Assembly (NCBI GenBank): GCA_018971025.1
Contig: JAGWVE010000015.1
Location: forward strand, 1-35,494
DNA: 35,494 bases
Source: Bacteroidota bacterium
Lineage (GTDB): Bacteria > Bacteroidota > Bacteroidia > Chitinophagales > Chitinophagaceae
Direction of reading: 5' to 3'
Of the stretch, positions 1,490 to 20,806 are shown piece after piece. The translations under genes and the position numbers were made by a program. Position 1 is the first letter of the stretch, and each line of letters starts with the position of its first letter. A model generated the notes under the pieces. That model saw only the letters and a list, made by a program, of their open reading frames with translations. It did no database searches and was not told the DNA's origin.

Positions 1490-1490
1490 T

Positions 1491-2267
1491 TTACTTACTG
1501 CGCGTAGTAGCGTCTACAAAACGCTCGTCGTAATCTGCGCGAATGGTATTAAAGAGGCGGTCCCACACAAGTGTGTAGAGCCCATAGTTACCCGTAAAAT
1601 ATTGATGGTGCTGATTGTGGTTGGTAGAGGTATTAATCCATCTACCAATTTTAGTTTTGTGAAAACCTGCTGGATATAATTCGTAGCCAAGGTGCCCGTA
1701 AACATTGTACACAATCGAGAACAAAAAGAAAATTGCGAGTTGTGTAATATGAATGGGCATGATAAAATAAAAGATTACTACAATACCATGCTCCAAAACC
1801 GATTCTATTGGATGAAACGCATACGCAGCCCAGGGAGAGGGGTTGGTTGAGCGGTGGTGCACCAGATGCACATATTTAAAAAGTGTTTTGTGGTGCATGA
1901 GGCGGTGTACCCAATAAAAATAAAAATCATGTAGTACAAACATGATTGGAAAAGCTAAAAAATAATAACCCCAACCATAATCACTAATATTTTTATAACG
2001 CGTGGTATGTTCTGCTATTGGTGACGAATTTAATAGCATGATTAGAAAACTAAAGATGAGCATGGTGGTTAATGAAAAACCTGCTTCACGCAAATAGTCC
2101 GGAACTTTTGGAAAACGCTTTTGGATTTTTTTATAGAAAAACTGTTGCTTAAAAACAACATAGAAAATAATAAAAGCAAGTGCTGCAAATAAAAAATAGC
2201 GTGAGCCGATTTTTAAAAAAGCTTCGGGCATAATATCCCAGCGTAATGCTAAAAGTTTTGCAATCAT
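1491..2267 (-). CDS. Sterol desaturase / fatty acid hydroxylase family membrane protein
   Basis: This is a di-iron integral membrane oxygenase of the family that hydroxylates or desaturates lipids. With ATG at 2267 the protein has 258 residues. Hydrophobic segments lie near 20-40 and 65-85, with more between about 100 and 190. The histidine clusters are HDFYFYWVHRLMHH (113-126), HLVHH (134-138), a lone His in GHLGYE (192) and HNQHH (217-221); together they give the expected iron ligands. The lipid substrate cannot be read from the sequence. An in-frame TTG at 2279 abuts the polA stop, but the ATG 12 nt further in is the better start; ATG at 2231 (MPEAF...) is another option. It follows polA directly, so co-transcription with polA is likely. 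Confidence 0.85.
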   Translation of the reverse strand: MIAKLLALRWDIMPEAFLKIGSRYFLFAALAFIIFYVVFKQQFFYKKIQKRFPKVPDYLREAGFSLTTMLIFSFLIMLLNSSPIAEHTTRYKNISDYGWGYYFLAFPIMFVLHDFYFYWVHRLMHHKTLFKYVHLVHHRSTNPSPWAAYAFHPIESVLEHGIVVIFYFIMPIHITQLAIFFLFSIVYNVYGHLGYELYPAGFHKTKIGRWINTSTNHNQHHQYFTGNYGLYTLVWDRLFNTIRADYDERFVDATTRSK

Positions 2268-2279
2268 GAATGTTTTCAA

Positions 2280-5156: not shown

Positions 5157-5160
5157 GGCG

Positions 5161-5168
5161 TAAAGTTA
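5161..5168 (-). promoter_or_regulatory. Candidate -7 element for polA
   Basis: On the minus strand the sequence reads TAACTTTA, 7 of 8 matches to the Bacteroidota -7 consensus TAnnTTTG. It ends 4 nt before the polA ATG, so transcription would begin at or near the start codon. No good -33 TTTG is visible; that position would fall inside the terminator stem at 5172-5198. The call is tentative. Confidence 0.35.
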
Positions 5169-5169
5169 C

Positions 5170-5198
5170 AAAAAACCCCGGCGTTTTGCCGGGGTTTT
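5170..5198 (-). terminator. Rho-independent terminator of the amidohydrolase operon
   Basis: A perfect 11-bp inverted repeat (AAAACCCCGGC at 5172-5182 and GCCGGGGTTTT at 5188-5198) surrounds a 5-nt loop. Read on the minus strand it follows the amidohydrolase stop at 5217 and ends in a T run (complement of 5171-5175). It lies only 16 nt before the polA start, so polA needs its own promoter or read-through. Confidence 0.85.
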
Positions 5199-5216
5199 AG
5201 CATTGAAAGGAACTCT

Positions 5217-6536
5217 TTATTTAATGTCGTATTTGTGTTTGTAACGCTCATACAACTGCTTGTGTTTGCTAGTAATAGCAACCGCGCGACCTTGTATAAA
5301 AGCATCGGTAACAATGCTAGACTTCATGTCTAAAATATCGCCTTCGCTAATTACAATATTGGCGTCTTTACCTACTTCTAGGGTGCCTGTTTTATCAGCA
5401 ACTCCTAAAATTTTAGCAGCATTTAAAGTAATGGCTTGAAGTGCGACTTCTTTACCTAAACCATATGCAGCAGCTGTTCCAGCGTTAAACATCAGGTTTC
5501 TACCACGGTTTTGAGGATCGTCATCATTTAAACAAAATAACACACCCGCTTTTTGTAAAGCAGATGCTGCTTTGTAAGGTTGATCAATATCATCATCTTC
5601 TGTGCTAGGTAAACTATGTTCTTGTGTTAAAATAACTGCGATGTTATTGGCTTTTAATAAATCAGCAATTTGCCAGCTTTCGCTTGCGCCTACTACTACT
5701 ACATCAAAGCCAAATTCTTTTACAAAATCAATGGCAATAAGCATTTGTTTTACCTGATCACAATGCACAAATAATTTTTGTGTGTGGTTAAATAAACCTT
5801 TGGTTGATTCTAGTTTTAAATTGATTTGTTTGTCAGCTCCTTTTTGGTGATACGCTTTTGCTTCTCTGAAAAAGGTTTTTACGCTTTCAATTTTATCCAA
5901 CGCTTCTTTGATAGGGTCGCCTGCTGGTGCCATACCACCAAAACCTCTGCCACCGCCAAAGCCTCTACCACCACCTCTTGAAATTAAACTAGGCATATAA
6001 AAATTCATGCCCATATCTGCTTTGTATGCTGCGTCTTCATAGTTCCATGCATCCAATTGTACCACAGATGACTGACCAGCAACGAGCTGTCCACCAGGCA
6101 CTGTGTGTGCAAGGAGTATACCATTAAGCCTGAGGGTATTGATTACAATAGACTCCGCTTTGTAGGCTGCAATGCTACGTACGGTTGGGTTAAACTCACC
6201 TATTTCATTGATATCAGTGCTTCCTCTAACACCCGTGATTTCTTGTAGGCCCAAATTAGAAGCCGGTAAAATAATACCCGGATACACTTGTTTTCCTTTT
6301 GCATCAATGGTGCTTTCTGCTTTTGGTGCAGCAGCAGCGTCACCGGCATACACTATTTTTCCGTTATCAAATACAACGGTTCCGTTTTCTATTACCTGAC
6401 CATTTCCTACGTGCACAGTAGCACCAACAATGGCTGTTTTTTTATTTTGTTTTGCGGCTGGGTAAACATCATCTTGTGCAAATACTGCAGCAGTGAATGA
6501 TACGAGCGCGCCAAGTGTAACTATTATTTTTTTCAT
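5217..6536 (-). CDS. Secreted amidohydrolase-family protein lacking the HxH metal motif
   Basis: This 439-residue protein has a signal peptide ending near VFAQ (residues 18-21), so it is exported. Its fold is that of imidazolonepropionase-like amidohydrolases: a beta-sandwich strand pair near 35-85, a barrel, and the C-terminal TGTLEVGKDANIVI return strand (383-396). Where active enzymes read PG-x-ID-x-H-x-H, this one reads PGIILPASNLGL (86-97), with Ala92 and Asn94 at the His positions. The third-ligand region VVGASESW (281-288) also lacks His. FVHCDQ (H258) and LNDDDP (336-341) remain. It may therefore be a pseudoenzyme or a non-catalytic partner. A Gly/Arg stretch occupies 187-201. The larger amidohydrolase lies 11 nt upstream, and the pair is probably expressed and perhaps assembled together. 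Confidence 0.85.
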   Translation of the reverse strand: MKKIIVTLGALVSFTAAVFAQDDVYPAAKQNKKTAIVGATVHVGNGQVIENGTVVFDNGKIVYAGDAAAAPKAESTIDAKGKQVYPGIILPASNLGLQEITGVRGSTDINEIGEFNPTVRSIAAYKAESIVINTLRLNGILLAHTVPGGQLVAGQSSVVQLDAWNYEDAAYKADMGMNFYMPSLISRGGGRGFGGGRGFGGMAPAGDPIKEALDKIESVKTFFREAKAYHQKGADKQINLKLESTKGLFNHTQKLFVHCDQVKQMLIAIDFVKEFGFDVVVVGASESWQIADLLKANNIAVILTQEHSLPSTEDDDIDQPYKAASALQKAGVLFCLNDDDPQNRGRNLMFNAGTAAAYGLGKEVALQAITLNAAKILGVADKTGTLEVGKDANIVISEGDILDMKSSIVTDAFIQGRAVAITSKHKQLYERYKHKYDIK

Positions 6537-6547
6537 GTCGCTACAAT

Positions 6548-9500
6548 TTATTTGTTATCGTTTTGGTTTGCTTCCACTTCATCACTGTCAATTTCTAGCA
6601 TACCTAATTTATGTGAGTGGTCGTTACAAGTATTGATTTCTTTAAAGCTTGGAGCCGCTGGTACAGTTGGTCTTCCAGCTCTTTTTTCGCCCGCCATTTT
6701 AGCAATTAAACGGCTACGTTCTGCCTGCACTTGCTTACGCATTTGTGCATCTTTTTCGCGGTCAAAATATACAATACCATCAACCATTGTTTTTTCTGCT
6801 TTCGCATAGATACTTAATGGGTTGTCGCTCCATAAAACAAGGTCAGCATCTTTACCTACTTTGATACTTCCTACTTTACCATCAACGTGTAACATTTTTG
6901 CAGGATTGATGGTCACCATTTTAAGTGCTTCTTCTTCTGTTAAACCACCATATTTTACACTCTTTGCAGCTTCTTGATTTAAGCGGCGCGCCATTTCTGC
7001 ATCATCAGAATTGATTGCAACATTTAAACCTACTTTAGTCATGATGGCTGCGTTGTAAGGGATGGCGTCTGTAACTTCCACTTTATAAGCCCACCAATCA
7101 GAAAACGTTGATGCAGCTACACCGTGTGCTTTCATTTTATCGGCTACTTTATACCCTTCTAAAATATGCGTAAATGTGTTTACTCTAAAACCATACTTTT
7201 CTGCAACACGCATGGTTGCCGTAATTTCACTTTGTACATATGAGTGACAAGTGATAAAACGTTTTTTATTCATGATTTCTACAAGCGCGTCTAATTCTAA
7301 ATCGCGTCGGGTAGCTGGGTTTTGTGCAAGTGCTGCTTCGTATGCTTTTGCTCTTGCAAACGCATCGTTTAATACTTGTTCTACGCCCATTCTGGTGTCA
7401 GGGTAACGGTTGTTACCTTGTGTAGAAGAAGTACGTTTTACGTTTTCTCCAAGTGCAAATTTGATAAATGGATCGGCGCCTTTAAATAGTAAGCCCGCGT
7501 CGTCTGCACCCCATCTTAATTTAATTAACTGCGTTTGACCACCAATGGTATTTGCAGAACCGTGTAAAATATGAGAGGTTGTAACACCACCACTTAACTG
7601 ACGATATATATTAATATCGTCGGGGTTGATATTGTCTTGGATACGCACTTCCGATGTTACGCTTTGTCCGCCTTCATTGGTTGAAGCAGATGCAATATGC
7701 GAGTGCTCATCAATAATACCTGCTGTCAAATGTTTGCCAGTACCATCAATAATTTTTGCGCTCGCGTCCGATAAGTTTTTACCCACTTTAGCAATCTTAC
7801 CGTTTTTAACAAGCACGTCTGTTTGTTGTAAAATGCCGTCTTTTTCTGAAGTCCAAACGGTTGCGTTTTTAAATAAATACGCTTGACTGTTGGAAGGAAT
7901 AGAGTCTACGCCAAAAGCCATCAAAGGAAAAGTAACTTTTCCCATTTTGCCGGCTCCAGCGCCTGCGCCGCCGCCAAATCCACCGCCACCCATTCTACCA
8001 CGTCCACCACCTGCATTTGAAGCGGTGTCTGGCTTAGAAGCTGAAGCATATACAGCGGTCCAGGTAAAATTATTGCCCTCTGCGTCTTGTGCTGTTCCGT
8101 TAAAAGAATTGCCTGCGTTAAAGCCGGTAAATCTAATATTGTTGCGAGAACGTTTTTCTGGCGCAAATGAAAACTTCACCACTTTACCATCGTAACTAAA
8201 TGTTGCAGCAACCGTATCTTTTGCAATAACGGTTGCGCTATTGTTGCTTTTAATTTCTAAAGCAAATGTTTGCGGTGTAGTACCATTTAATGTGAGGGTA
8301 TAATTTCCATTCACACTTGTCCACGCAGATTCGTTCACTGCATATTTTTCTCCTAGTACCCAGTTTTGTAATAAGGTTGTTTTTTCTGCAAAAATTGGAC
8401 CTGTTGTAATTACAAAGTTGGCTAGTTTTCCAGCTTCGATACTGCCTACTTTATCATATACACCAAACCAAGTAGCTGGTGTTTTTGTAAGTGCATCCAT
8501 TGCTGCTTTTTCAGATAAACCATTTTCGATGGCTTTTCTAACATTCGCTAAAAATGATTTTGAATCTCGTAAATCTGAGCTTGTCAAACAAAACGGAATG
8601 CCCGCTTTTTCAATAGCACCAGGGTTGGTTGGTGCTAGTTCCCAATGCTTCATGTCTTGTAAAGAAACAAGCTTTGCATCTGCAGGATCTTCTACGTCCA
8701 TCGCTGCCGGGAAGTTTAAGTTAACAATAAGTGGTGCTTTGGTAGCGGCCACTTCTTTGATTCTTTGGTATTCTTTTCCAGTTGCTTTAATAATGTATTG
8801 AACCCCAAACTCATCACCCACACGGTCTGCGCGCATTACGCCCCAAACATCGCCAGCGCCTCTGTCTGCAGGATCAAACACCTGTGGTAAAGACATATTG
8901 TTGTTAAAAGATTGAAGCGTAATGTTTACACCATCTCCTTGTAAGCCTGTAGCACTAGGGTTGTTCTTGTACCACGCAGCGTCTAAATAAGTTTGACGGA
9001 GTAATGCAATAGAACCCATTAATGAACTTGGATAGGTTTGCGTAGAAGTTCCTTTGTTAAAAGACAATAAAGAAGCTGCTTTCTCTTTTAGAACTACAAA
9101 ATTGTCTTTGCTGTCTGCAAGTGCTACCACAGTTCCGGTACCTCTCACAATACCATCTTTTTGATGGGTGAGTACGGTTCCAAAACCAGTTTCTCTAAAT
9201 GATTTTGCTCTTGCTTCATCGGCAGTAAAAAGTTTATAGCCTTCTACGTCAGATTTTAAAGCCTGGTTCCAACCATATGCACCTTTTTGGTTGTTGGTTA
9301 ATTGACCAGGTCCGCCAAAATTAAAACCGCCTTGAGCGCGCTGTTGTTGTGGCATACCATAATCGGTATAGGCATCAATAAATGATGGATAAATATACTT
9401 GTCTTTGCAATCTACCACTACTGCGTCTGCTGGTACGGCAACGCCTTCACCCACTGCAACAATTTTTCCGTCTCTAATAACGAGTGTTGCATTTTTAATA

Positions 9501-9649
9501 GTGGTTTGTGCGTCTTTTACAATGGTTGCATTGGTAAATGCATAACAACCATCGCGCTTATCGCCAACGCCGTTTACTTGAAAAGTTTCTTGAGCCTGCA
9601 CAAAATGTGAGAGCAGCAACCCAACAAACATCACACAGATTTTTTTCAT
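6548..9649 (-). CDS. Secreted tandem-domain amidohydrolase, C-terminal domain catalytic
   Basis: This 1033-residue exported protein (signal peptide 1-20, ending VQAQ) carries two amidohydrolase domains. The N-terminal one (about 35-435) has PSFIDAYTDY (88-97), where Tyr94 and Asp96 replace the two metal-binding His residues. A middle beta-rich segment (445-535) resembles a small lipocalin-like or immunoglobulin-like insert; a Gly/Arg/Ala-rich linker follows (547-570). The C-terminal domain (590-965) is intact: IIDEHSH (H649, H651), TCHSY (H802), FTHILEG (H828) and NSDD (D882). It should bind metal and hydrolyse a C-N bond of an unknown, perhaps dipeptide- or imidazolone-like, substrate. The tail contains an odd TCNDHSHKLGM (1007-1017). 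It sits between a lipoprotein peptidase-like hydrolase (10 nt upstream) and the second amidohydrolase, suggesting a periplasmic scavenging operon. Confidence 0.88.
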   Translation of the reverse strand: MKKICVMFVGLLLSHFVQAQETFQVNGVGDKRDGCYAFTNATIVKDAQTTIKNATLVIRDGKIVAVGEGVAVPADAVVVDCKDKYIYPSFIDAYTDYGMPQQQRAQGGFNFGGPGQLTNNQKGAYGWNQALKSDVEGYKLFTADEARAKSFRETGFGTVLTHQKDGIVRGTGTVVALADSKDNFVVLKEKAASLLSFNKGTSTQTYPSSLMGSIALLRQTYLDAAWYKNNPSATGLQGDGVNITLQSFNNNMSLPQVFDPADRGAGDVWGVMRADRVGDEFGVQYIIKATGKEYQRIKEVAATKAPLIVNLNFPAAMDVEDPADAKLVSLQDMKHWELAPTNPGAIEKAGIPFCLTSSDLRDSKSFLANVRKAIENGLSEKAAMDALTKTPATWFGVYDKVGSIEAGKLANFVITTGPIFAEKTTLLQNWVLGEKYAVNESAWTSVNGNYTLTLNGTTPQTFALEIKSNNSATVIAKDTVAATFSYDGKVVKFSFAPEKRSRNNIRFTGFNAGNSFNGTAQDAEGNNFTWTAVYASASKPDTASNAGGGRGRMGGGGFGGGAGAGAGKMGKVTFPLMAFGVDSIPSNSQAYLFKNATVWTSEKDGILQQTDVLVKNGKIAKVGKNLSDASAKIIDGTGKHLTAGIIDEHSHIASASTNEGGQSVTSEVRIQDNINPDDINIYRQLSGGVTTSHILHGSANTIGGQTQLIKLRWGADDAGLLFKGADPFIKFALGENVKRTSSTQGNNRYPDTRMGVEQVLNDAFARAKAYEAALAQNPATRRDLELDALVEIMNKKRFITCHSYVQSEITATMRVAEKYGFRVNTFTHILEGYKVADKMKAHGVAASTFSDWWAYKVEVTDAIPYNAAIMTKVGLNVAINSDDAEMARRLNQEAAKSVKYGGLTEEEALKMVTINPAKMLHVDGKVGSIKVGKDADLVLWSDNPLSIYAKAEKTMVDGIVYFDREKDAQMRKQVQAERSRLIAKMAGEKRAGRPTVPAAPSFKEINTCNDHSHKLGMLEIDSDEVEANQNDNK

Positions 9650-9659
9650 ACTTGTTGTT

Positions 9660-10727
9660 TTATTTTGTTTTTCCTTGGTCTACAGATTTTATAAAATTAA
9701 TAACGCCATCCATAAATACTTTTTGATCATCCCACATAGCAAGGTGGCTTCCGTTCGGGCAATATAAATATTGACCATTTGGAAATTGTGTGCTCATCCA
9801 TTTCATGTGTTCTGGGTCCATGGTATCATATTTTGCACCTACGGTCAGTGTAGGTACTTTAATAGAAGCTAAATCTTTTTTACGATCCCAATTTACAATA
9901 CGTCCACCCACTGTAAATTCAGAATGACCTTGCATCATTACATAAATTTCTTCGTTCACGTGTTGCAATGAGCGCATTACAGAGTTTGGCCACTCTGGTA
10001 AACGGCAAAGGTGTTTGGTATAAAATTCACTAAACACTAGTGCATTATAGGTAGGGTCTTTAAACATTCCTTTTGCTTCATAGTTTTGCAAAGAGTCTAC
10101 CAGTGAAGGACGCATTTCTTTGCGCAACACTTTGTTATAATTTGCATAATCCGGAATACTTGCCATCATATTTCCAATCACCATGCCTTTAATATGCTGT
10201 TGGTATTTTAATGCGTATTCCATGGCTAGCATGCTGCCCCATGAATTTCCAATAATGTAAAAATTGTCTTTGGTTAAATTGAGTGCCACACGAACCTGTT
10301 CTACTTCATCCACAAAGCGTTCGATGGTCCAAAGGCTACTATCTTTTGGTTGATCACTATAATAAGAACCCAACTGATCGTACTCAATTATTTCGTAGCC
10401 CTGTGCTGGTAAAAAACTTTCAAAGCACTCCATGTATTCGTGTGTCATGGCTGGTCCGCCATGTAACAACAATACTTTTACGCGGTCGCTGTTACCAATG
10501 CTTTTAGTCCAAACTTTAAAAGTTCCGATAGGCGTTTTGATAGGAATCATTTTGATACCCGCTAGTTGAACCCCAGAATCTTTGGGTCCTAAAAATTGTG
10601 CTAGTGTTGGCGCGTTGTTATTGTTAGCGCAAGCAGTAAACAGGAAAATACCTGCCGCTGCAATCGTGGTTTGAAGTAGTTTTTTCAAGTGTATGTTTTT
10701 GCTTATGAATGTACATAAAAAAGCCAT
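9660..10727 (-). CDS. Alpha/beta hydrolase lipoprotein, proline iminopeptidase-like (family S33)
   Basis: This is an alpha/beta hydrolase close to proline iminopeptidases. With ATG at 10727 it has 355 residues. HGGPA (89-93) forms the oxyanion region, DQLGSYYSDQP (117-127) matches the family's DQ-G-S-P signature, and the nucleophile is Ser162 in GNSWGS. The acid is probably D301 or D304 and the base His328 in NGSHLAMW. The hydrophobic N-terminus ends in FTAC, a lipobox, so it is probably a lipoprotein. The ATG gives an overlong n-region; a TTG at 10688 (M-K-K-L-L-Q-T-T...) would give a normal 20-residue signal peptide and may be the true start. It probably cleaves N-terminal residues from peptides and heads the amidohydrolase operon. 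Confidence 0.85.
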   Translation of the reverse strand: MAFLCTFISKNIHLKKLLQTTIAAAGIFLFTACANNNNAPTLAQFLGPKDSGVQLAGIKMIPIKTPIGTFKVWTKSIGNSDRVKVLLLHGGPAMTHEYMECFESFLPAQGYEIIEYDQLGSYYSDQPKDSSLWTIERFVDEVEQVRVALNLTKDNFYIIGNSWGSMLAMEYALKYQQHIKGMVIGNMMASIPDYANYNKVLRKEMRPSLVDSLQNYEAKGMFKDPTYNALVFSEFYTKHLCRLPEWPNSVMRSLQHVNEEIYVMMQGHSEFTVGGRIVNWDRKKDLASIKVPTLTVGAKYDTMDPEHMKWMSTQFPNGQYLYCPNGSHLAMWDDQKVFMDGVINFIKSVDQGKTK

Positions 10728-10756
10728 ACACTTTTAGTGCATTTATGTGAGCGGGC

Positions 10757-12625
10757 CTATCTGCCCATATATACCATGAGTATTTGAATATCACTTGGAT
10801 TAACACCACTTATTCTGCTGGCTTGGCCGAGTGTGCTTGGTCTAATTTTTTTGAACTTTTGCATCGCTTCGTTAGAAAGCGCGGCAATACCATCGTAATT
10901 AAAACTTTCAGGAATAATGTGGTTTTCCATTTGCAACATTCGCGTTGCAATTTCTTGTTCTTTTTCGATGTAGCGCTCGTATTTGATCTGAATTTCTGCT
11001 TGCTCTAAAAGCTGTGGATGAAACCCTGCAAGTGCTTCTTTTAAACGGGGCATAGCCGCTGAAAGGCCCACCAGGTCTACGTTTGGACGTAGTAATATTT
11101 TTGAAGCTTTTTGTTTTTCTGTTATTGATGCCGAATTAATTTCATTGAAATAGCCTTCAATTTCTGAAGGTTCAATGCTATAAGATGCAAGTAAATTTTT
11201 AATGTCGGTGACGCTATTTTTTTTCGCTTCCACGGCGTCCATTCTATCTTGTTTGGCAAGACCTAGTTGATAGCTTAATGGGGTAAGTCTGATATCGGCG
11301 TTGTCTTGTCTTAGGAGAGTTCTAAACTCTGCGCGACTCGTGAACATGCGGTATGGTTCTTCGGTTCCTTTGCCTACTAAATCATCAATGAGTACGCCTA
11401 TATAAGCTTCGCTTCTTTTTAAAATAACTGGGTCTAATTCACGCGATTTTTGGTGCGCGTTTATGCCAGCCATTAAACCCTGACAAGCCGCTTCTTCGTA
11501 ACCTGTTGTGCCATTTATTTGTCCGGCAAAAAACAGGTTTTCGATAAGCTTGGTTTCTAATGAATATTTTAATTGTGTAGGCTGAAAATAATCGTATTCA
11601 ATGGCGTAGCCCGGTCTAAAAAAACGACAATTCTCAAACCCCGGAACACTACGAAGAGCTTCGTACTGAACCTCTTCTGGTAAGGAGGTAGAAAATCCGT
11701 TTACATATATTTCTACGGTGTTCCAGCCCTCTGGTTCTACAAACAATTGGTGTCTATCTCTATCAGCAAAACGATTAATCTTGTCTTCAATACTTGGGCA
11801 ATACCGAGGACCAACGCCTTCAATTCTACCCTGAAACATCGGGCTTCTATCAAATCCTTTTCTTAATAGATCGTGTACCTTTTGGCTGGTATACGTAATA
11901 TGGCAACTGCGCTGATCTGCTGCTTTAATACGCGGCGTGTCTTTGTATGAAAAGCCCACAACTTCCTCATCCCCAGCCTGTTCTTCCATTTTAGAATAGT
12001 CTAAACTACGTCCATCTACCCTTGGTGGTGTACCTGTTTTTAGGCGGTCACTTTCCATTCCTAGTGCAACCAACTGCTCGGTGATGCCTGTTGCGGCTTT
12101 CTCTGCTACGCGTCCTCCTCCAAATTGCTTTTCTCCAATATGAATGATGCCATTTAAAAAGGTTCCTGAAGTAACCACCACTGTTTTAGATCTAATCTCA
12201 TGTCCCAGTCCTGTGATGACTCCACCCGCTCTATTGTCTTTTATGATTAGCCCCTGCACTGTATCTTGGTAAAAATCTACATTGGGGGTTTCTTCTAGCA
12301 TCTCTCTCCACTTGGCAGCAAACAACATACGGTCGTTTTGCGCACGCGGGCTCCACATTGCAGGACCCTTGCTCCTATTGAGCATTCGAAATTGTATGGT
12401 ACTTGCATCTGTAACCAGTCCGGTGTATCCACCCATCGCATCTATCTCACGCACAATTTGCCCTTTGGCAATACCACCAATAGCGGGGTTACAACTCATT
12501 TGGGCAATGGTTTGCATATTCATAGTAACTAGGAGCACTTTACTACCCAGGTTGGCGGCGGCAGCGGCGGCTTCACAACCTGCGTGTCCGGCACCTACAA
12601 CAATAACATCATAATCTGGAAACAT
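10757..12625 (-). CDS. mnmG: tRNA uridine-5-carboxymethylaminomethyl modification enzyme MnmG (GidA)
   Basis: MnmG works with MnmE to install the cmnm5 group on the wobble uridine of certain tRNAs, using FAD, NADH and methylene-THF. The 622-residue length is typical. The FAD-binding dinucleotide motif GAGHAG is at residues 11-16, followed by the conserved Cys-containing MSCNPAIGG. The C-terminal helical domain ends with RISGVNPSDIQILMVY, the MnmE/tRNA-binding tail. The gene begins just downstream of a parS-like cluster, an arrangement reminiscent of origin-proximal gidA in other bacteria. A -7 element lies 5 nt before the ATG. Confidence 0.98.
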   Translation of the reverse strand: MFPDYDVIVVGAGHAGCEAAAAAANLGSKVLLVTMNMQTIAQMSCNPAIGGIAKGQIVREIDAMGGYTGLVTDASTIQFRMLNRSKGPAMWSPRAQNDRMLFAAKWREMLEETPNVDFYQDTVQGLIIKDNRAGGVITGLGHEIRSKTVVVTSGTFLNGIIHIGEKQFGGGRVAEKAATGITEQLVALGMESDRLKTGTPPRVDGRSLDYSKMEEQAGDEEVVGFSYKDTPRIKAADQRSCHITYTSQKVHDLLRKGFDRSPMFQGRIEGVGPRYCPSIEDKINRFADRDRHQLFVEPEGWNTVEIYVNGFSTSLPEEVQYEALRSVPGFENCRFFRPGYAIEYDYFQPTQLKYSLETKLIENLFFAGQINGTTGYEEAACQGLMAGINAHQKSRELDPVILKRSEAYIGVLIDDLVGKGTEEPYRMFTSRAEFRTLLRQDNADIRLTPLSYQLGLAKQDRMDAVEAKKNSVTDIKNLLASYSIEPSEIEGYFNEINSASITEKQKASKILLRPNVDLVGLSAAMPRLKEALAGFHPQLLEQAEIQIKYERYIEKEQEIATRMLQMENHIIPESFNYDGIAALSNEAMQKFKKIRPSTLGQASRISGVNPSDIQILMVYMGR

Positions 12626-12630
12626 GGGTG

Positions 12631-12638
12631 CAAAGATA
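12631..12638 (-). promoter_or_regulatory. Candidate mnmG promoter (-7 element)
   Basis: The minus strand reads TATCTTTG, a full match to TAnnTTTG, followed after 5 nt (CACCC) by the mnmG ATG. A CTTG at the complement of 12657-12660, 18 nt further upstream, could act as the -33 TTTG. The spacing suggests a leaderless or nearly leaderless transcript. Confidence 0.6.
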
Positions 12639-12682
12639 ATCCAATCAAAAAGAAAACAAGGTACTATGGGGTTAGATTTGAC

Positions 12683-12698
12683 TGTTTCACGTGGAACA
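12683..12698. other. parS: parS-like ParB-binding site 1
   Basis: The 16-mer TGTTTCACGTGGAACA differs by one base from the classical parS palindrome TGTTTCACGTGAAACA. It lies in the mnmG-ybeY intergenic segment and is identical to site 2. ParB/Spo0J binds such sites and nucleates the segregation complex, normally close to the replication origin. Confidence 0.85.
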
Positions 12699-12729
12699 AT
12701 AGCACAATCGGCATCGTGAATTGGAAAGA

Positions 12730-12745
12730 TGTTTCACGTGGAACA
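12730..12745. other. parS: parS-like ParB-binding site 2
   Basis: This is an identical copy of the 16-mer TGTTTCACGTGGAACA, centred 47 bp from site 1. Two exact copies 31 bp apart in non-coding DNA argue against chance. Confidence 0.85.
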
Positions 12746-12757
12746 AACTTGTAGACC

Positions 12758-12771
12758 GTTCCACGTGGAAC
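12758..12771. other. parS: parS-like ParB-binding site 3
   Basis: GTTCCACGTGGAAC is a perfect 14-bp palindrome with the parS CACGTG core, centred 27 bp from site 2. It ends on the base next to the ybeY stop codon (12772-12774). The outer T and A of the 16-mer are replaced by C on both sides. Confidence 0.8.
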
Positions 12772-13200
12772 CTACTTTTTAGTATAGCGCTTTAGGTATG
12801 CGTCTTCTTTGGCGCGCATCATCAAAATGTCGGCCTTGCTCTTATCCTTGTAGCCACATAAATGAAGGGCACCATGAAAAAGGACACGAAGCATTTCATT
12901 GGCAAAGGTAACTCCATGGGTTTTGGCGTTATCCTTTACCCTGTCTACACTTATATAAACTTCAGCTACAACAGGTGTTCCTTTGTCGTGTAAACCAAAA
13001 GTTATGATGTCGGTGTAGTAATCGTGGTTCAAAAACTGCTGGTTAATGGACAAAAGGTATTTGTCTGAGCAAAAAATGTAATTGATGGTAGCAAGCGGCG
13101 TCTTCTCCTTTTTAAATAAGTTTTCTATAAACGACTTTAGTTCTGTTTTAGCTGGTAAGCTAAGCGCGGAGTCTGCCTTTTGGAAATTTACTTTTTGCAT
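12772..13200 (-). CDS. ybeY: Endoribonuclease YbeY (rRNA maturation factor)
   Basis: YbeY is a metal-dependent RNase involved in 16S rRNA 3' processing and ribosome quality control. The 142-residue length fits the short Bacteroidota form. The metal motif is HGALHLCGYKD near residues 110-120: the first two His ligands are present, and the third, normally His in GYDH, aligns with Asp in GYKD. From memory this Asp form is common in Bacteroidota, so I read it as a lineage variant rather than a dead enzyme. The start ATG at 13200 is the first in frame. It is divergent from feoA and followed by the parS-like cluster and mnmG on the same strand. Confidence 0.93.
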   Translation of the reverse strand: MQKVNFQKADSALSLPAKTELKSFIENLFKKEKTPLATINYIFCSDKYLLSINQQFLNHDYYTDIITFGLHDKGTPVVAEVYISVDRVKDNAKTHGVTFANEMLRVLFHGALHLCGYKDKSKADILMMRAKEDAYLKRYTKK

Positions 13201-13255
13201 GGGTGCAAGTTAAGTTTAACTCCAAATTTCGTAACATTTTCTTTGGCATGAGTGG

Positions 13256-13263
13256 TACCTTTG
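13256..13263 (+). promoter_or_regulatory. Candidate promoter for feoA-nadD (-7 element)
   Basis: TACCTTTG matches the TAnnTTTG consensus 31 nt before the feoA ATG. The matching -33 is unclear: the nearest TTTG (13242-13245) is only 10 nt upstream, too close for the usual 19-21 nt spacing. Confidence 0.45.
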
Positions 13264-13294
13264 CGCAAATCTCAAGCAGTAACAAAAGGGGTGC

Positions 13295-13528
13295 ATGAAA
13301 AAATTATCAGAATTAGCAGCAGGAGAAGAAGGAATCATTCACTCTTTTGAAAAGGATGAACTCTACATAAAATTATTAGAGATGGGCTGTGTACCCGGCG
13401 AACCCGTTAAAGTATTACAAGTTGCGCCCCTAGGAGATCCTATTTCGATAGAAGTTTCTGGCTATCATTTAAGCCTTCGCTTAAGTGAAGCAGACAATAT
13501 AATCGTAACCCTGGTTACACAAAATTAA
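13295..13528 (+). CDS. feoA: FeoA family protein (standalone)
   Basis: This 77-residue protein is a single SH3-like FeoA domain, the small cytoplasmic partner of the ferrous iron transporter FeoB. Typical features are the N-terminal L-S-E-L-A-A-G run, the central I-K-L-L-E-M-G-C-V-P-G turn (about 24-36) and the GDPISIEVSGYHLSLR strand (about 46-62). No FeoB lies in the window; the next gene, 28 nt downstream, is nadD. It may act with a distant FeoB or belong to the isolated FeoA-like proteins of unclear role. It is divergent from ybeY. Confidence 0.85.
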   Translation: MKKLSELAAGEEGIIHSFEKDELYIKLLEMGCVPGEPVKVLQVAPLGDPISIEVSGYHLSLRLSEADNIIVTLVTQN

Positions 13529-13556
13529 CACAACTAATTGGTTTTCAACACATTAC

Positions 13557-14129
13557 ATGAAAATAGGTTTATACTTTGGTTCATTTAATCCTGTTCACCA
13601 CGGTCATTTAATGATCGCGAGCCATGTTGTGAATAGAACCGACGTACAACAGGTTTGGTTTGTTGTGTCACCACAAAATCCATTTAAAACCGCAGCTTCA
13701 TTACTTAACGAATACGACAGATTGCATCTTGTAAACCTGGCAATTGAAAATGACGAGTCCAGATTAAGGGCTTCTGATGTTGAGTTTAAATTACCACGCC
13801 CTTCCTATACAATCGATACACTTATATATCTAGAGGAAAAATATCCGCAGCACGAGTTTTCAATTATTATGGGAAGCGATGGATTTGTCAATATTCCACG
13901 CTGGAAAAACGCTGATATTCTTTTAAAAAAATATGCCTTTTATGTGTATTTACGTCCGGGTTATGAAACCGTTGATACACTAGGTGCCAACGTTACCATA
14001 TTAAAAGCACCACTATTAAATATTTCAGCAACAGATATTAGAGATAATATTAAAGACCAAAAAACAATCAGGTATCTCGTTCCAGAAAATGTCAGAAAAG
14101 AAATAGAAGACAACCATTACTATAAATAA
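13557..14129 (+). CDS. nadD: Nicotinate-nucleotide adenylyltransferase
   Basis: NadD joins ATP and nicotinate mononucleotide to make deamido-NAD, the penultimate step of NAD synthesis. The protein has 190 residues. The nucleotidyltransferase signature GSFNPVHHGH is at residues 8-17, and the second signature ISATDIR lies near 160-166. The fold and length match bacterial NadD. It follows feoA by 28 nt and probably shares its promoter. Its stop codon (14127-14129) touches the bidirectional terminator that separates it from the convergent foldase gene. NAD salvage genes pnuC and a NadR-type kinase occur about 17 kb away in the same window. Confidence 0.96.
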   Translation: MKIGLYFGSFNPVHHGHLMIASHVVNRTDVQQVWFVVSPQNPFKTAASLLNEYDRLHLVNLAIENDESRLRASDVEFKLPRPSYTIDTLIYLEEKYPQHEFSIIMGSDGFVNIPRWKNADILLKKYAFYVYLRPGYETVDTLGANVTILKAPLLNISATDIRDNIKDQKTIRYLVPENVRKEIEDNHYYK

Positions 14130-14181: not shown

Positions 14182-16272
14182 CTAATAAAAAGTAGAACGG
14201 TTGTCTGTAATTTTTGCAGCTTTTTTAACAGCTTCAAAACCTCTAAAAATAGTAGACTGTGCTGCTTGTAATAAAGTTCCTTTTAATGCAGTAGCATCTT
14301 GCATTGTGGCGCCCGCACCAATGTTTTCAGGCTTTACAGCAAATACACCAGCTGCTCCTTCGATGGCTGGGGTATTTTTTCCAATCAACGCTTTATTAAA
14401 TGCAGCACCAATAACTTTTGGTTCAGCACCAATGCCAGGTACAAATGGTGAAGCAAAACTTAAGCTGTCAACTCTTTGAGCTGGGAAACCTGAAGACTTT
14501 ACAAAATCTTCGAGCGTTGAGCCCTTAAATTTGGTTTCAATGATTTGTTTTGCTTTTTCTTGGTTTCTTACAAGACCTTCTACAAGTGGTCTAGCTTCTG
14601 CTACACCCATGGTTCCTTTTTCACCAATAGAAGTGATTATTGCAACAACATATGCGTCGCCAATTTCTGTTGGTTCAGATACGGTACCTACTTTATTATC
14701 ATACACCCAACGCACGGTTTCTCTGCTTTTACCTAAGCCTGCAATCGTGAAATCGTTTTTCTTGATATCAACACCGTTCATAATTTGAAGGTTGCTCTTA
14801 AGTGCGTTTTGTTCGAAATCTTTTTTAGACTTACTGTTTGCTACAAATGAAGCAGCAGCGGTTGAAGCAGCGGTAACGGTTTCGTTGCTAGCAACAATGG
14901 CTTTAGATAAATAAGCAATTTTATATGCAGGCGCAAAGTTCTTTTGGTCTAATACTTCTGTGTAGTGATAACCAAATTCTGATTTCACTACATCTTTTGT
15001 ACCCTTTGGTTTATCAAAAGAAAAATCATTAAACGCACCAACCATTTGTCCTTGAGGGAAATAATCATATACACCACCCTTTTCTTTACTGCCCTGATCA
15101 TCAGAATATTTCTGAACAAGTGCATTAAAGTCTGCACCACCAGCAACGGCATATTTAATAGAATCTGCTAATTTTTTAGCAATACTGTCAGGTCTAATTT
15201 GTTGACCAGATCTTGGATCTACAGTAGCAATTAATATGTGGCGAACCTTTGCACTATCAGGCCAGTTTTTAATGCCAACCATTTTTGCTAAAACAAAAGC
15301 ATTACCATCAACATAAGGACCATACACTGTTCCGGTAGGGATTTTAACAAGCGTATCTTTGTTAACTTGTTGCATTCTACTCTTACTAAAGTATCCATCA
15401 TAGAAAGGTAAATCACTCCCAACTCTGCTTAAAAATGCAGCATTATCAGTGGTTGTAGCAAATTCTTGTTTTTGAGCTGCAACTTCGTTGAAAACAGCAG
15501 CACTATCAGAACTACTTGGAACAGCACTAAAAGAAACATAAGCAATAGATCTTGTTTCTTCATCTTTTTGATACGCTGCAGCATGCGCTTTTACATAAGA
15601 AGCGATAGCGTCATCTGATACTTTAATCGTACTGTCTGCTATTGTAGCATATGGAACAAACACTACAGAAGCACTAGCTATCTGATTGTTATCAGCAGCT
15701 TGTTTTTCAACCAACCATTTTGGCACATACGCAGATTTTTGTAAAAGAACACTATACTTATTACGAAGCGCTTGTTCTAATACAGGCTGAATGTAAACCT
15801 GATTGATCATTTTAATTTGTTCTGCATTTTTGCTTTTTTTAATTTGAGCAAATGCTTTTTTAGCATCTTCCACTTTAAATAAACCTGTTGCAGGATCTGT
15901 AAACTCTTGTTTTAATGGAGAATTTTCAGAAAATAAAATATCGCTTAATTCTTTAGCTGTTACTTGTAAACCTAATTTAGCACACTCTCCTTCAATTAAT
16001 AAACGGTCTACTTCTTGATTCCATAAAGAACCAATGAGTTGATCTCTTTGTGCACCCTGGCTCGCATACATTTTTTCTTGCATGGTCAACTTTTCTTCAA
16101 AAGCTGTTCTTTCTATTTTTTGACCATTAACTTGGCCAATAGTAGTAGTGTTTGAAAATGCACGACCACCTCTACCTACACCATCTTGTAATATAAAGGC
16201 AATTAAAGCAAGGGCAATGATACCAAAAATGATCCAAGCGCCTCTGTCACGAATACTTTGAATAACAGACAT
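14182..16272 (-). CDS. Membrane-anchored peptidyl-prolyl isomerase (PpiD/SurA-like)
   Basis: This 696-residue protein is a periplasmic folding chaperone. A short cytoplasmic N-terminus leads into one transmembrane helix (residues 12-29), then a SurA/PpiD N-terminal chaperone domain (about 45-240). A parvulin-type rotamase domain covers about 339-445, with VRHILI (343-348), the D-F-N-A-L-V-Q-K-Y-S helix and KGG-V-Y-D-Y-F (398-405), ending FGYHYTEVLD (433-442). The C-terminal 250 residues are probably a second, degenerate rotamase-like and chaperone segment. Domain order matches PpiD rather than SurA because of the membrane anchor. It would help fold outer-membrane and secreted proteins. It faces the long AT-rich region, with a -7 candidate 46 nt upstream of the ATG. 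Confidence 0.92.
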   Translation of the reverse strand: MSVIQSIRDRGAWIIFGIIALALIAFILQDGVGRGGRAFSNTTTIGQVNGQKIERTAFEEKLTMQEKMYASQGAQRDQLIGSLWNQEVDRLLIEGECAKLGLQVTAKELSDILFSENSPLKQEFTDPATGLFKVEDAKKAFAQIKKSKNAEQIKMINQVYIQPVLEQALRNKYSVLLQKSAYVPKWLVEKQAADNNQIASASVVFVPYATIADSTIKVSDDAIASYVKAHAAAYQKDEETRSIAYVSFSAVPSSSDSAAVFNEVAAQKQEFATTTDNAAFLSRVGSDLPFYDGYFSKSRMQQVNKDTLVKIPTGTVYGPYVDGNAFVLAKMVGIKNWPDSAKVRHILIATVDPRSGQQIRPDSIAKKLADSIKYAVAGGADFNALVQKYSDDQGSKEKGGVYDYFPQGQMVGAFNDFSFDKPKGTKDVVKSEFGYHYTEVLDQKNFAPAYKIAYLSKAIVASNETVTAASTAAASFVANSKSKKDFEQNALKSNLQIMNGVDIKKNDFTIAGLGKSRETVRWVYDNKVGTVSEPTEIGDAYVVAIITSIGEKGTMGVAEARPLVEGLVRNQEKAKQIIETKFKGSTLEDFVKSSGFPAQRVDSLSFASPFVPGIGAEPKVIGAAFNKALIGKNTPAIEGAAGVFAVKPENIGAGATMQDATALKGTLLQAAQSTIFRGFEAVKKAAKITDNRSTFY

Positions 16273-16318
16273 AAAAACGAATTATAATAAATAAAATGAC
16301 CGGCAAATTACCGGAGGG

Positions 16319-16326
16319 CAAAAATA
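16319..16326 (-). promoter_or_regulatory. Candidate -7 element for the foldase gene
   Basis: The minus strand reads TATTTTTG, matching TAnnTTTG, 46 nt before the ATG at 16272. The leader between them contains a small CCGG-N7-CCGG inverted repeat (16300-16314). No properly spaced -33 TTTG was found. Confidence 0.35.
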
Positions 16327-16751
16327 AGGTATTGCGGGCTTATTTCTATCCACAAACTAGGGGTTAATAAGTAGTATTTTAGGTGGAAAACTGCCCTTAT
16401 TACAAAAAAGAATGTGAAAAGGAATAGAACAACTTAGGGGGTAAAAGGTATTTTAAGGGGTAAGGCCTAAAATAAACTCATTTTACACCCAGTTAATTAA
16501 CAGTATACAACTCGTGGATACTAAAATATTTATCATTTAATAACCGCTGAATTAAAATTTAAAAAAGGTTGATAAACTATACTTATATCAAGGAACCTTG
16601 TTTATAAAAATGTGTATTAAGGTGTATAACCAGTGAACACTAAAAATTTACGTATGTGCATAAGAAGGTTATTAAGGTATTAACACCCGTAATAGTAATA
16701 GTTTATTTAAATAAAAAGGTATTAAATCTATTATTACAAGGTTTATTAACA
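16326..16751 (+). repeat. Degenerate AAGGT-containing repeats
   Basis: AAGGT occurs at 16326, 16445, 16565, 16619, 16665, 16674, 16716 and 16738 on the plus strand, often continuing as AAGGTWTTAA or AAGGTKTATAAC, and once inverted in AAGGAACCTT (16590-16599). A longer imperfect direct repeat pairs 16503-16526 with 16622-16645 (18 of 24 bases identical, mostly transitions). Spacing is irregular. They could be protein-binding iterons of an origin. Confidence 0.55.
16655..16663 (-). other. DnaA-box-like 9-mer
   Basis: The minus strand reads TTATGCACA, an exact match to the relaxed DnaA box TTWTNCACA. It is the best box in the region; the others have one mismatch, and such near-matches are not rare in AT-rich DNA. 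Confidence 0.5.
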
Positions 16752-16812
16752 CACATTTTTTCTAAAAAAATTAGATTCAAAAAAATCAATTGCTTCTTGT
16801 AATTTCAATCTT

Positions 16813-18720
16813 ATGAAAATATTAAAATTTGTATTTGCATTTTTAATCCTGGCATACACAGCAAAAACGCAACCTACTCAAAAACCGCCATTGCATGGAA
16901 AAAATTGGATGGCCATTACTGGTAAACCACTCGCTGCAACTGCTGGTTCTATTATTTTTAATAAAGGCGGAAATGCTGTAGATGCAGCCTGTGCTATGTT
17001 AGCAGCCACTTGCACCATGTGGGATGTACTTAGCTGGGGTGGAGAAACACAAGCCTTAATTTACAATCCAAAAACAAAACAAGTTATCGCCATATCCGCC
17101 ATGGGTGTGGCTCCTACGGGTGCAACACCAGATTTCTTTAAAAATAAAGGGATGAATTATCCACCAGAATATGGACCCTTAGCTGCAACAACACCGGGTA
17201 CACCGGGTGGATTATGTTTTATGCTTGCAGAATATGGAACGATGCGTTTAGAAGAAGTTTTAAAACCAGCAATGCAGCTTGCTGCAGGTTATCCCATTGA
17301 CGCGCAAACAGCAAATAGTATCGAACGCGGTAAACAAAGAATTAAAGAATGGCCCTATAGTAAAAATGTTTTATTACCACATCTAGGTGAAAAAAGAGAA
17401 GCACCGGAAGCGGGAGAAATTTTTATTCAAAAAGATTTACTAGCAACATTACAAAAATTAGTAGATGCAGAAAAACAAGCACTTAAAAAAGGTAAATCTA
17501 GAAAGGAAGCTATTTATGCAGCTTATGACCGTTTTTACAAAGGCGATATTGCTCAGGAATTTGTTAGAGGTGCACAAGAACAAGGTGGACTTATTACCCT
17601 TCAAGATTTAGCCAATTGGAAGCCTACCATCGAAACACCTTTACAAATCAATTATAAAGGCATCGACGTTTATAAACTTCAACCTTGGACACAAGGTCCT
17701 AGTATGCTACAGGCTTTAAATATTTTAGAAAATTTTGATTTAAAATCAATGGGTTATAATTCTCCAGCTTATATCCATACGGTGTACCAGGCTATGAATT
17801 TAAGTTTTGCAGACCGTGATTTTTATTATGGAGATCCTTTATTTTCTAGTCAAATTCCTATCAAAGGCTTACTGAGTAAGGATTATGCTAAAAAAAGAGC
17901 TTCAGAAATACCCGTTGGTTTTAATAATCCAAATACAGCACCAGGCGATCCATATCCATTTGAAGGAAAACAAAATCCTTTTACTAATTTATTACAACAA
18001 AGAGCGGCACTTTATAATACAGATACAGCAACCAGAAAAACAGGGGTTTTACCAAGTCATGACGGCACAGAAATAGCTAAAAATGAAGCTTTAAATCATG
18101 AATTATATATGGACCGCTTATGGAGGGGAACAACTTCTGTAGAAGCAGCCGATACAAGCGGATGGGTGGTATCAATTACACCAAGTGGTGGTTGGATTCC
18201 TGCATGCATTGCTGGTAATACAGGTGTTGGAATGAGTCAACGAATGCAATCCTTTGTGTTAGATTCTATACAAAATCCATTTAATGTGGTAGCACCTGGA
18301 AAAAGACCACGCGTAACATTAACACCAAGTCTTGCATTAAAGGATGGTAAACCATTTTTATCTTTTGCAGTGCAGGGAGGTGATACCCAAGATCAAAATT
18401 TATTACAGTTTTTTTTAAACATGGTTGAATTTGGGATGACAGTTCAACAAGCAGCAGAAGCAGCAAATATTAATTCCAATCAACTATGGTTATCACTTGG
18501 TGGAAATAAAATAGCAGATCGAAAACCAAAACCAGGCAACTTGTTGCTTCATACCAATACCCCAGAAAAAGTTAGAACCGAATTAAAAAAGATGGGATAT
18601 AATTTGAGTTTTGATCCAAGAAGTAGTGGTCCTATCAATGCCATATTTTTTGACTGGAAGCATGGAAGCCTTTGGGGTGGCAGTTCTAACAATGGTGAAG
18701 ATTATGGTATTGGTTGGTAA
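16813..18720 (+). CDS. Gamma-glutamyltransferase family protein (Ntn-hydrolase), exported
   Basis: This 635-residue protein has a signal peptide (1-19) and the gamma-glutamyltranspeptidase fold, which autocleaves so that a Thr becomes the N-terminal nucleophile of the small subunit. Family marks include KGGNAVDAA (51-59), TPGTPGG (127-133) and the middle domain QINYKGIDVY (278-287). The processing site is RGTTSVEAAD (438-447), with Thr440 the expected nucleophile. Classical enzymes read TTH-x-S-VVD here, so this is a divergent subfamily and its donor need not be glutathione. GNTGVGMSQRMQ (468-479) and the RPR-V-TLTPS segment (498-506) are also typical. It lies right of the candidate origin and 14 nt before the ChaN-like gene, probably in one operon. 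Confidence 0.88.
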   Translation: MKILKFVFAFLILAYTAKTQPTQKPPLHGKNWMAITGKPLAATAGSIIFNKGGNAVDAACAMLAATCTMWDVLSWGGETQALIYNPKTKQVIAISAMGVAPTGATPDFFKNKGMNYPPEYGPLAATTPGTPGGLCFMLAEYGTMRLEEVLKPAMQLAAGYPIDAQTANSIERGKQRIKEWPYSKNVLLPHLGEKREAPEAGEIFIQKDLLATLQKLVDAEKQALKKGKSRKEAIYAAYDRFYKGDIAQEFVRGAQEQGGLITLQDLANWKPTIETPLQINYKGIDVYKLQPWTQGPSMLQALNILENFDLKSMGYNSPAYIHTVYQAMNLSFADRDFYYGDPLFSSQIPIKGLLSKDYAKKRASEIPVGFNNPNTAPGDPYPFEGKQNPFTNLLQQRAALYNTDTATRKTGVLPSHDGTEIAKNEALNHELYMDRLWRGTTSVEAADTSGWVVSITPSGGWIPACIAGNTGVGMSQRMQSFVLDSIQNPFNVVAPGKRPRVTLTPSLALKDGKPFLSFAVQGGDTQDQNLLQFFLNMVEFGMTVQQAAEAANINSNQLWLSLGGNKIADRKPKPGNLLLHTNTPEKVRTELKKMGYNLSFDPRSSGPINAIFFDWKHGSLWGGSSNNGEDYGIGW

Positions 18721-19792: not shown

Positions 19793-20806
19793 ATGAGTAA
19801 CACTGAAAAATTAAAGGCGCTAAAATTAACAATCGACAAAATAGATAAAGACTATGGTAAAGGCTCTGTCATGATGATGAACGAGCGAAGCCAAGAGCCT
19901 ATGGAAGTGATTTCAACAGGTTCAATAGGACTTGATAGCGCACTTGGTATAGGTGGTTTACCAAAAGGTAGAATCATAGAAATATATGGACCAGAATCTT
20001 CTGGTAAAACAACAGTGGCTATTCATGTCATTGCAGAAGCGCAAAAAAAAGGTGGTATGTGTGCAATCATCGATGCGGAACATGCTTTTGATAGTGCTTA
20101 TGCAAGAAAATTAGGTGTAGACGTAGATAGTTTACTCGTTTCTCAACCAGATTATGGTGAGCAAGCTTTAGAAATTGCAGATCGTTTAATATTATCAGGC
20201 GCGCTAGATGTAGTTGTTATTGACTCTGTAGCGGCGCTAGTTCCTAAAAGTGAACTAGAGGGTGAAATGGGTGATTCTAAAATGGGTTTACACGCAAGAC
20301 TTATGAGCCAAGCGCTTCGTAAACTTACAGCAACCATTAATAAGACAGGAACGGTTTGTATTTTCATCAACCAGCTCCGTGAAAAAATTGGTGTTATGTT
20401 TGGTAACCCAGAAACAACAACAGGTGGTAACGCATTAAAATTCTATGCGTCAGTTCGTTTAGATATTAGAAGAATGACCCAAATCAAAGATGGTGATGCG
20501 GCAATTGGTAACCACGTTAAAGTAAAAGTGGTAAAAAACAAAGTAGCGCCTCCGTTTAGAGCCGCAGAGTTTGATATCATTTTTGGAGAAGGTATTAGCA
20601 AGCTTGGTGAAATCATCGATATGGGTGTAGAGCTTGGTATTGTTCAAAAAAGCGGTAGCTGGTTTAGCTACGATACCAACAAACTTGGTCAAGGAAGAGA
20701 GTCTGTAAAAACACTTTTACACGATAATCCAGAATTAGCCAACGAAATCGAGGCTAAAATTAGAGCTAAGGTTATCGAAGCAAGAACTGCAGCCGCTGAA
20801 GCGTAG
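19793..20806 (+). CDS. recA: Recombinase RecA
   Basis: RecA forms filaments on single-stranded DNA, drives strand exchange and triggers SOS-type responses. The protein has 337 residues. The Walker A motif GPESSGKTT is near 65-73, the DAEHAFD segment near 95, the Walker [11 protein letters not shown] near 141-150, and the DNA-binding loop L2 region with [13 protein letters not shown] near 203-215. [12 protein letters not shown] is near residue 300. All catalytic parts are intact and the C-terminal tail is short, ending in A-A-A-E-A. It has its own promoter and a terminator just downstream, so it is probably monocistronic. Confidence 0.99.

Follow-up and report, generated by a model that had tools for sequence, protein, structure and literature searches.

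We predict, with near certainty, that the gene-free gap at positions 16273–16812 of the window (the whole 35,494-nt stretch analysed here) is a chromosomal origin of replication. It very probably represents an oriC at which DnaA would dock on the boxes at 16669–16685 and open AT-rich DNA by gripping the run at 16690–16701. Relative to the boxes, the trinucleotides of this run are flipped with respect to those of Bacillus subtilis, and we lean slightly toward the view that the Chitinophagaceae have rewritten the single-strand code read by DnaA, losing the guanine-reading residue as the trios turned. The proposal draws on what can be read from sequence, namely the place of the gap, the change of skew in relatives, the box-box-spacer-trio-AT layout, the reversed sense of the trios and the residue changes in DnaA. 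The initial annotation had already regarded the gap as a candidate oriC, and that reading gains support from the skew of congeners and from a conserved unwinding core. The features to which we refer are as follows.

16273–16812, no strand: predicted oriC, an AT-rich gene-free gap, from boxes, congener skew and conservation
16346–16354, plus strand: DnaA-like box CTATCCACA, one mismatch
16490–16503, no strand: CAGTTAATTAACAG, containing the core palindrome GTTAATTAAC
16599–16629, minus strand: three clustered one-mismatch DnaA-like boxes (16599, 16611 and 16621)
16655–16663, minus strand: exact DnaA box TTATGCACA
16669–16685, plus strand: co-oriented tandem DnaA-like boxes TTATTAAGG / GTATTAACA, with one base in common
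16686–16689, plus strand: 4-nt spacer CCCG
16690–16701, plus strand: TAATAGTAATAG, putative DnaA-trio run of reversed sense
16702–16789, no strand: AT-rich stretch; the predicted unwinding element is 16690–16789, the least stable 100 bp
16702–16715: palindrome TTTATTTAAATAAA, within the AT-rich stretch
16728–16737, plus strand: CTATTATTAC, right-hand run, inverted relative to 16690–16701 and present in weaker form across the genus
16743–16751, plus strand: DnaA-like box TTATTAACA
12683–12772, plus strand: three parS-like sites (12683, 12730 and 12757)
10757–12625, minus strand: mnmG (gidA)
14182–16272, minus strand: SurA/PpiD-like peptidyl-prolyl isomerase ("ppiD"), the left syntenic marker
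16813–18720, plus strand: gamma-glutamyltranspeptidase (GGT), at the nadA position of most family relatives
19793–20806, plus strand: recA, right of the gap in the genus

The gap is 540 bp long, lies between the divergent genes at 14182–16272 (minus) and 16813–18720 (plus), and has a GC content of 27.4% against 38.9% window-wide, as the initial annotation's description of an AT-rich gap implied. As expected of an oriC, it is intergenic, AT-rich and, by computation, thermally unstable, 16690–16789 being the lowest-stability 100 bp in the 35 kb window, and it holds a cluster of DnaA boxes above chance, as do the 23 orthologous gaps taken together. The one exact TTWTNCACA box previously reported (16655–16663, minus strand) is present, and the accompanying one-mismatch boxes number eight rather than six. 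These nine boxes with at most one mismatch compare with a shuffle mean of 2.07, and none of 1000 dinucleotide shuffles reached nine; any other 540-bp stretch of the window, taken in steps of 90 bp, has at most six. The single exact box by itself was equalled in 79 of 1000 dinucleotide shuffles of the gap, and exact TTWTNCACA is not enriched across the whole window (3 found, 7.2 expected), so that clustering alone counts. The cumulative GC skew of the window has its minimum at 16312, inside the gap, and the A-T skew at 16153. An Rfam search of 16000–17000 found no family at the gathering score. The palindrome TTTATTTAAATAAA and the runs TAATAGTAATAG and CTATTATTAC lie where they had been placed earlier; that the sense of the run is opposite to that of the known motif had been missed.

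Among 30 Pfam-scanned genes, the direction is leftward for 8 of the 11 left of the gap and rightward for 15 of the 19 to its right, close to the counts on which the claim of genes diverging from the gap had been based. The three parS-like sites said to lie near the gap form a tight cluster between mnmG and ybeY: TGTTCCACGTGGAACA at up to three mismatches finds all three (0 of 100 shuffles reach three), and TGTTTCACGTGAAACA matches two of them (5 of 100 shuffles reach two). A cluster of 16-bp palindromes near the predicted origin is what a ParABS centromere would present, and these sites would serve segregation. Congeners G027, G034 and G006 have parS-like sites 12–16 kb from the gap, and G008 has them on a separate contig; a parS-like site (GTTYCACGTGRAAC, at most one mismatch) was not found in G010, G017, G011, G021 or G030, whose ParB site may be different from that of the congeners with clusters.

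Because the source assembly consists of 2.02 Mb in 117 contigs, chromosome-wide skew was read in single-contig relatives. Two of these, G010 and G017, belong to the same genus and were assumed circular; 20 stretches of 20 kb were sampled from each, with the arms split at the gap and at the opposite point and the gap-spanning sample excluded. Skew was negative in 10/10 samples of one arm and positive in 7/9 of the other, both in G010 (3.716 Mb, ppiD start at 950031) and in G017 (3.056 Mb, ppiD start at 2294097). Skew had been put forward from the outset as a check on the origin, and its sign thus changes at the orthologous gap in both congeners. Over 100 kb, the fine cumulative minimum fell at 950115 in G010, 84 bp within the ppiD start, and at 2279291 in G017, 15 kb off the gap. 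The coaD/mnmG-to-DUF2480 block next to ppiD is inverted in G017 relative to the window, which may account for that shift. The expected sign at third codon positions was weakly followed in G010 (7/10 and 5/9) and was seen in 9/10 and 8/9 samples of G017. In other genera, skew on the single contig of G323 (4.9 Mb) switches from negative to positive values at the conserved signature described below (6/6 negative, 4/4 positive), and the partial chromosomes of G292 (3/5 negative, 5/5 positive) and G288 (2/2 and 3/3, small values) show weak sign changes there. The distant family member G227 showed no such change at its signature, with 2/4 samples negative on the left and 1/2 positive on the right. 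As a separate observation, the mnmG/polA/fatty acid hydroxylase block (983–14129 in the window; L065–L066) is inverted in G017 and apparently in several other congeners.

Relatives of the ppiD protein come from Sediminibacterium and other mostly uncultured Bacteroidota, with Cnuella takakiae further off, and NCBI places Sediminibacterium and Cnuella both in the Chitinophagaceae; from these named records we infer that the genus is Sediminibacterium and the family (f1) Chitinophagaceae. Alignment of 23 orthologous gaps, that of the window included (L076 ended before the trio and was read separately), revealed as conserved blocks GTTAATTAAC (exact in 19/23), several TATNMACA-like boxes and a core made up, in order, of two tandem DnaA-like boxes, a spacer of 4 nt that is mostly GC-rich, TAATARTADTAG and an AT-rich stretch. 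The tandem pair reads TTATCCACG-AATCCACA in the family member G317, and at the site of the box at 16346–16354, TATCCACA or TATACACA occurs in 9 of 12 group-A gaps. Strict TTWTNCACA was rejected as a conserved mark, since 11 of the 23 gaps lack it despite an overall enrichment (19 in total, against 2.6 in shuffles). The looser TTATNMACA occurs 38 times over the 23 gaps against 5.1 in shuffles (100 shuffles, largest 10). Conservation of the boxes in relatives, a further check proposed at the outset, therefore fails for single TTWTNCACA boxes and holds for looser boxes together with the trio block. In one half of the aligned gaps (L081–L091 except L088), a further AT-rich block, AAATACTAAATTTATTACTAAA ... 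TTTAGTTTATTAACAATTTATCC, is conserved between the trio and recA and is perhaps the recA promoter.

Of 147 genus genomes, 99 have the signature TATNMACA-N4-TAATARTADTAG in exact form, 97 with a single copy and 2 with two copies, and 48 lack it in that form; its backwards control matched none of the 147. The two genomes with two copies (G061 and G107) have them on different contigs and are perhaps mixed bins. The R and D of the pattern were chosen by us, which makes it uninformative on variable bases, and those bases were for that reason read from regions selected by ppiD. That set has 51 rows, 41 of them distinct, with some genomes present under two names, and combines the 23 gaps with 28 named loci out of 31; L123, L132 and L133 were excluded for want of upstream DNA or for distant kinship. 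The signature is present in all 51 regions upstream of ppiD (41 distinct), with at most two changes in the trio block, and the top trio match sits behind the boxes in 49 of 51; in L084 and L089 an equally good match elsewhere was scored, the signature is visible in the alignment, and column counts keep both mis-registered rows. Eight of the 12 trio positions, those of T and A in every triplet, are identical in at least 40 of the 41 distinct rows, at loci whose ppiD protein is 47–90% identical to that of the window.

Beyond the genus, 22 of 29 family genomes in an order-level sample match the signature at one mismatch or fewer, as do 5 of 29 with the backwards control at one mismatch. Outside the family, 20 of 163 genomes match, every one with a mismatch, against 28 for the control, so these matches are chance-like. 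Each of the 22 family genomes has one match beside ppiD or nadA (16 beside both, 5 beside nadA only and 1 beside ppiD only), and G296 and G331 have extra matches away from both genes. The usual family order is ppiD, gap, nadA, the right-hand gene being assigned as nadA by Pfam; GGT replaces nadA in the window, and the core is retained with nadA, GGT or recA as the downstream gene. From the adjacency to ppiD and nadA in the 22 genomes, this order looks ancestral, with GGT at the place of nadA in the clade of the window. Among named records, Cnuella takakiae NZ_MTFE01000010.1 (L129) provides an example. DNA upstream of ppiD in 20 order-level genomes lacked the signature in both senses, and thus either the place or the motif differs outside the family. 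In G296, two signature-like sequences (C30, 334598 and 334645; L195), with one mismatch, converge 47 bp apart, which hints that the arrangement may be mirrored in one genus.

The sense of the run distinguishes the family. The strand of B. subtilis oriC whose 5′-to-3′ direction leads away from the boxes has the sequence CTACTATTACTTCTACTA, according to passages in PMC10201434, PMC10721633 and PMC8287927; it is the opposite strand that DnaA grips, as 3′-GAT-5′ trios. In the window, the strand leading 5′ to 3′ from the boxes reads TAATAGTAATAG, so that the strand usually gripped reads 3′-CAT TAT CAT TAT-5′. At least 40 of 41 rows retain the central A and third T of the trios on this usual strand; a G in first place is confined to the first trio, where 12 of 41 rows have C on the box strand. 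Three other Bacteroidota families show the textbook sense, CTACTACTA behind tandem boxes, in eight genomes: six of f43 (G486, G421, G613, G394, G586 and G512), with for example GTTATCCAC-TTATCCACA-GTCT-CTACTACTATTACTA, and G365 (f45) and G544 (f61), whose sites resemble the f43 arrangement. These box-trio sites are presumably origins themselves. Because the textbook sense is found in these families, the reversed sense is, as the surveyed genomes present it, a property of the family and not of the whole phylum. In phylum scans, each sense matched 26 of 296 genomes; 6 of the 26 reversed-sense matches are family members at the known place and 20 are others, and we judge the remaining phylum matches to be mostly chance-like from G575, G590 and backwards controls. 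A class scan in either sense matched 28 of 246 genomes, with scattered matches outside the family. In two f72 genomes (G618 and G821), GCNCCATTARTATTACTA-like runs come after a box, which may point to a trio of mixed sense in a further family. Literature searches did not find Bacteroidetes, oriC and DnaA-trio treated together, and those pairing DnaA-trio with the stem Bacteroid, or Chitinophagaceae with oriC, returned matches that were off-topic by title; the supplements of PMC8287927 may show trio logos by phylum, in which this sense may already be visible.

The protein that would read the run is altered as well. The structure of B. subtilis DnaA on the BUS, as presented in parts of PMC10721633, has Asn187 touching the trio adenine, Arg202 and Glu228 contacting the guanine, and Ile190 and Ile193 flanking the third base. 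Aligned to the 8btg chain, DnaA of the window organism has Asn187, Ile202 and Ala228. Of the residues that capture the trio, Asn187 is kept in 22 of 23 family proteins, and Arg202 and Glu228 are lost in all 23 (Ile202 and Ala228 in each); residue 193 is Ser in 23/23. Two of 41 DnaA loci, L092 and L279, were excluded for lack of a readable frame. The eight CTA-sense genomes have Glu228 (8/8), Ser202 (8/8) and Asn187 (6/8, with Thr in G365 and G544), and two more f43 genomes, which lack a CTA site with tandem boxes, have Glu228 too. Since Arg202 is replaced and Asn187 sometimes is Thr in CTA-sense genomes, it is Glu228, not Arg202, that tracks trio sense in this sample. Six genomes examined from f3, f8, f18 and f25 have Ile or Val at position 228, and the loss of Glu228 probably predates the family. 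The correspondence between trio sense and DnaA is one phylogenetic contrast, because the family descends from one ancestor. In two f25 genomes (G356 and G438), Gln occupies the position of Asn187, so the adenine-contacting residue has changed there also.

We propose that DnaA docks on the tandem boxes at 16669–16685 and assembles toward 16690–16789, where melting would begin. It would grip the usual strand, here the bottom one, reading 3′-(C/T)AT-5′ instead of 3′-GAT-5′, since the residues that contact guanine are gone and the Asn that contacts adenine is kept. With replication then running in both directions, one arm would carry recA and uvrB, and the other mnmG and polA. Opening of the gap in the manner of the BUS seems to us probable. 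The sense of the run implies either a 3′-YAT-5′ code on the usual strand or an opening complex on the other strand, and we hold the chances to be even that the trios are recoded rather than strand-swapped.

A first rival has the origin here with DnaA gripping the top strand, on which TAATAGTAATAG becomes the textbook 3′-GAT AAT GAT AAT-5′ and the polarity of the opening complex is reversed relative to the boxes. The variable trio positions on that strand are indeed mostly G or A (G36/A5, G17/A15/T9 and G38/A3 in 41 distinct rows), in agreement with the 3′-[G/A]A[T/A]-5′ form published in PMC7561715. We nevertheless consider it unlikely: loss of the guanine-contacting Glu228 in 23/23 DnaA proteins is the opposite of what a G-rich trio needs; a far-side box in the needed orientation, with at most two mismatches and within 16 nt, occurs in only 1 of 47 cores (G292; G000, G010 and G034 counted twice); and the B. 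subtilis origin is inactive once the near boxes are reversed, as stated in passages of PMC6669920. That the run is instead a product of chance or composition, DnaA opening the gap as in E. coli without trios, is an improbable account, to which the failure of the window gap to rise above shuffles by published BUS scoring lends some weight, but which is hard to square with eight nearly invariant trio positions beside a ppiD of only 47–90% identity or with a signature that 97 of 147 genus genomes carry as a single copy and whose control matches none.

Two other rivals place the origin elsewhere. The gap might be a divergent promoter or regulatory region of ppiD and its neighbour with the origin nearby; it does lie between divergent genes, and in many relatives nadA begins some 45–60 bp past the end of the signature. 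The core persists with nadA, GGT or recA beside it, the G010 skew minimum falls at the gap, the gap has both the densest box cluster of the window (540 bp, every 90 bp) and its least stable DNA, and Rfam assigns no family to 16000–17000 at the gathering score, all of which makes a purely regulatory role very improbable. An origin next to dnaA is scarcely credible at all. dnaA-linked origins are common among bacteria, and the G017 record opens at dnaA (C1, 509–994); the gene lies about 0.76 Mb from the skew-defined origin in that genome, so that coordinate zero of the record is not the origin, and about 0.86 Mb away in G010 (C1, 1812360–1812845). Samples flanking dnaA have the same skew sign on both sides (+0.036 and +0.042 in G010, +0.162 and +0.101 in G017).

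If the family has indeed rewritten the code, whichever strand is gripped, the trio code and its DnaA reader would have changed together. The structural account of trio-base choice on which we draw covers 3′-GAT-5′ and the Asn187/Arg202/Glu228 of B. subtilis DnaA, and the family, with otherwise the same layout, a flipped run and an altered reader, would serve as a natural experiment in how trios are recognised and which strand is chosen. More practically, ppiD, box-N4-TAATARTADTAG and nadA in succession provide a precise oriC tag for draft genomes of the family, useful where records start at dnaA, as in G017, 0.76 Mb off the skew-defined origin.

The published rule asks that a BUS have three or more trios no further than 16 nt from a DnaA box that departs from TTATCCACA at two positions at most. 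The adjoining box of the window, GTATTAACA (16677–16685), has three mismatches to TTATCCACA, and among 47 genus and family cores, 32 lie within the two-mismatch limit and 15 beyond it. The trios are not mostly 3′-GAT-5′ but mostly 3′-(C/T)AT-5′ on the usual strand, with GAT readable on the other; the relaxed form of the rule (3′-NAN-5′, at least three trios) describes the run beside the boxes. The best BUS score in the window gap came from outside 16669–16701 and was equalled, out of 60 shuffles, by 18 when scored in the known sense and by 6 when scored in the reversed sense. Published BUS scoring was set aside as a detector, three or fewer of 60 shuffles reaching the score in only 6 of 23 gaps in either sense. 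Because the score is unexceptional and the near box has three mismatches, we do not file the gap as a member of the BUS as defined, and regard it as an oriC that would work like one. A mirrored, two-armed BUS, with the left run and the right-hand CTATTATTAC forming a symmetric loader, was dropped because the box at 16743 (plus strand) is co-oriented with the left pair, which leaves the mirror without a platform of its own.

Like the BUS of B. subtilis oriC (DnaA-boxes 6/7), the gap has in its core a co-oriented box pair and a short spacer, then a trinucleotide run with invariant central A/T, then AT-rich DNA. It differs in that the run downstream of the boxes is TAATARTADTAG and not CTACTATTACTT, the boxes are degenerate (TATNMACA), dnaA lies about 0.8 Mb away in two congeners, and the DnaA of the family lacks Glu228 and Arg202. 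The CTA-sense sites of other Bacteroidota (f43, G365 and G544) likewise have tandem boxes, with a spacer of 4–5 nt, but unlike this family they combine the run CTACTACTA with a DnaA that has Glu228, as in B. subtilis. The gap also resembles oriC1 and oriC2 of Clostridioides difficile, for which passages of PMC7561715 describe DnaA boxes, a trio and an AT-rich unwinding region; whereas that origin is bipartite and dnaA-linked, the predicted origin here is a single gap unlinked to dnaA.
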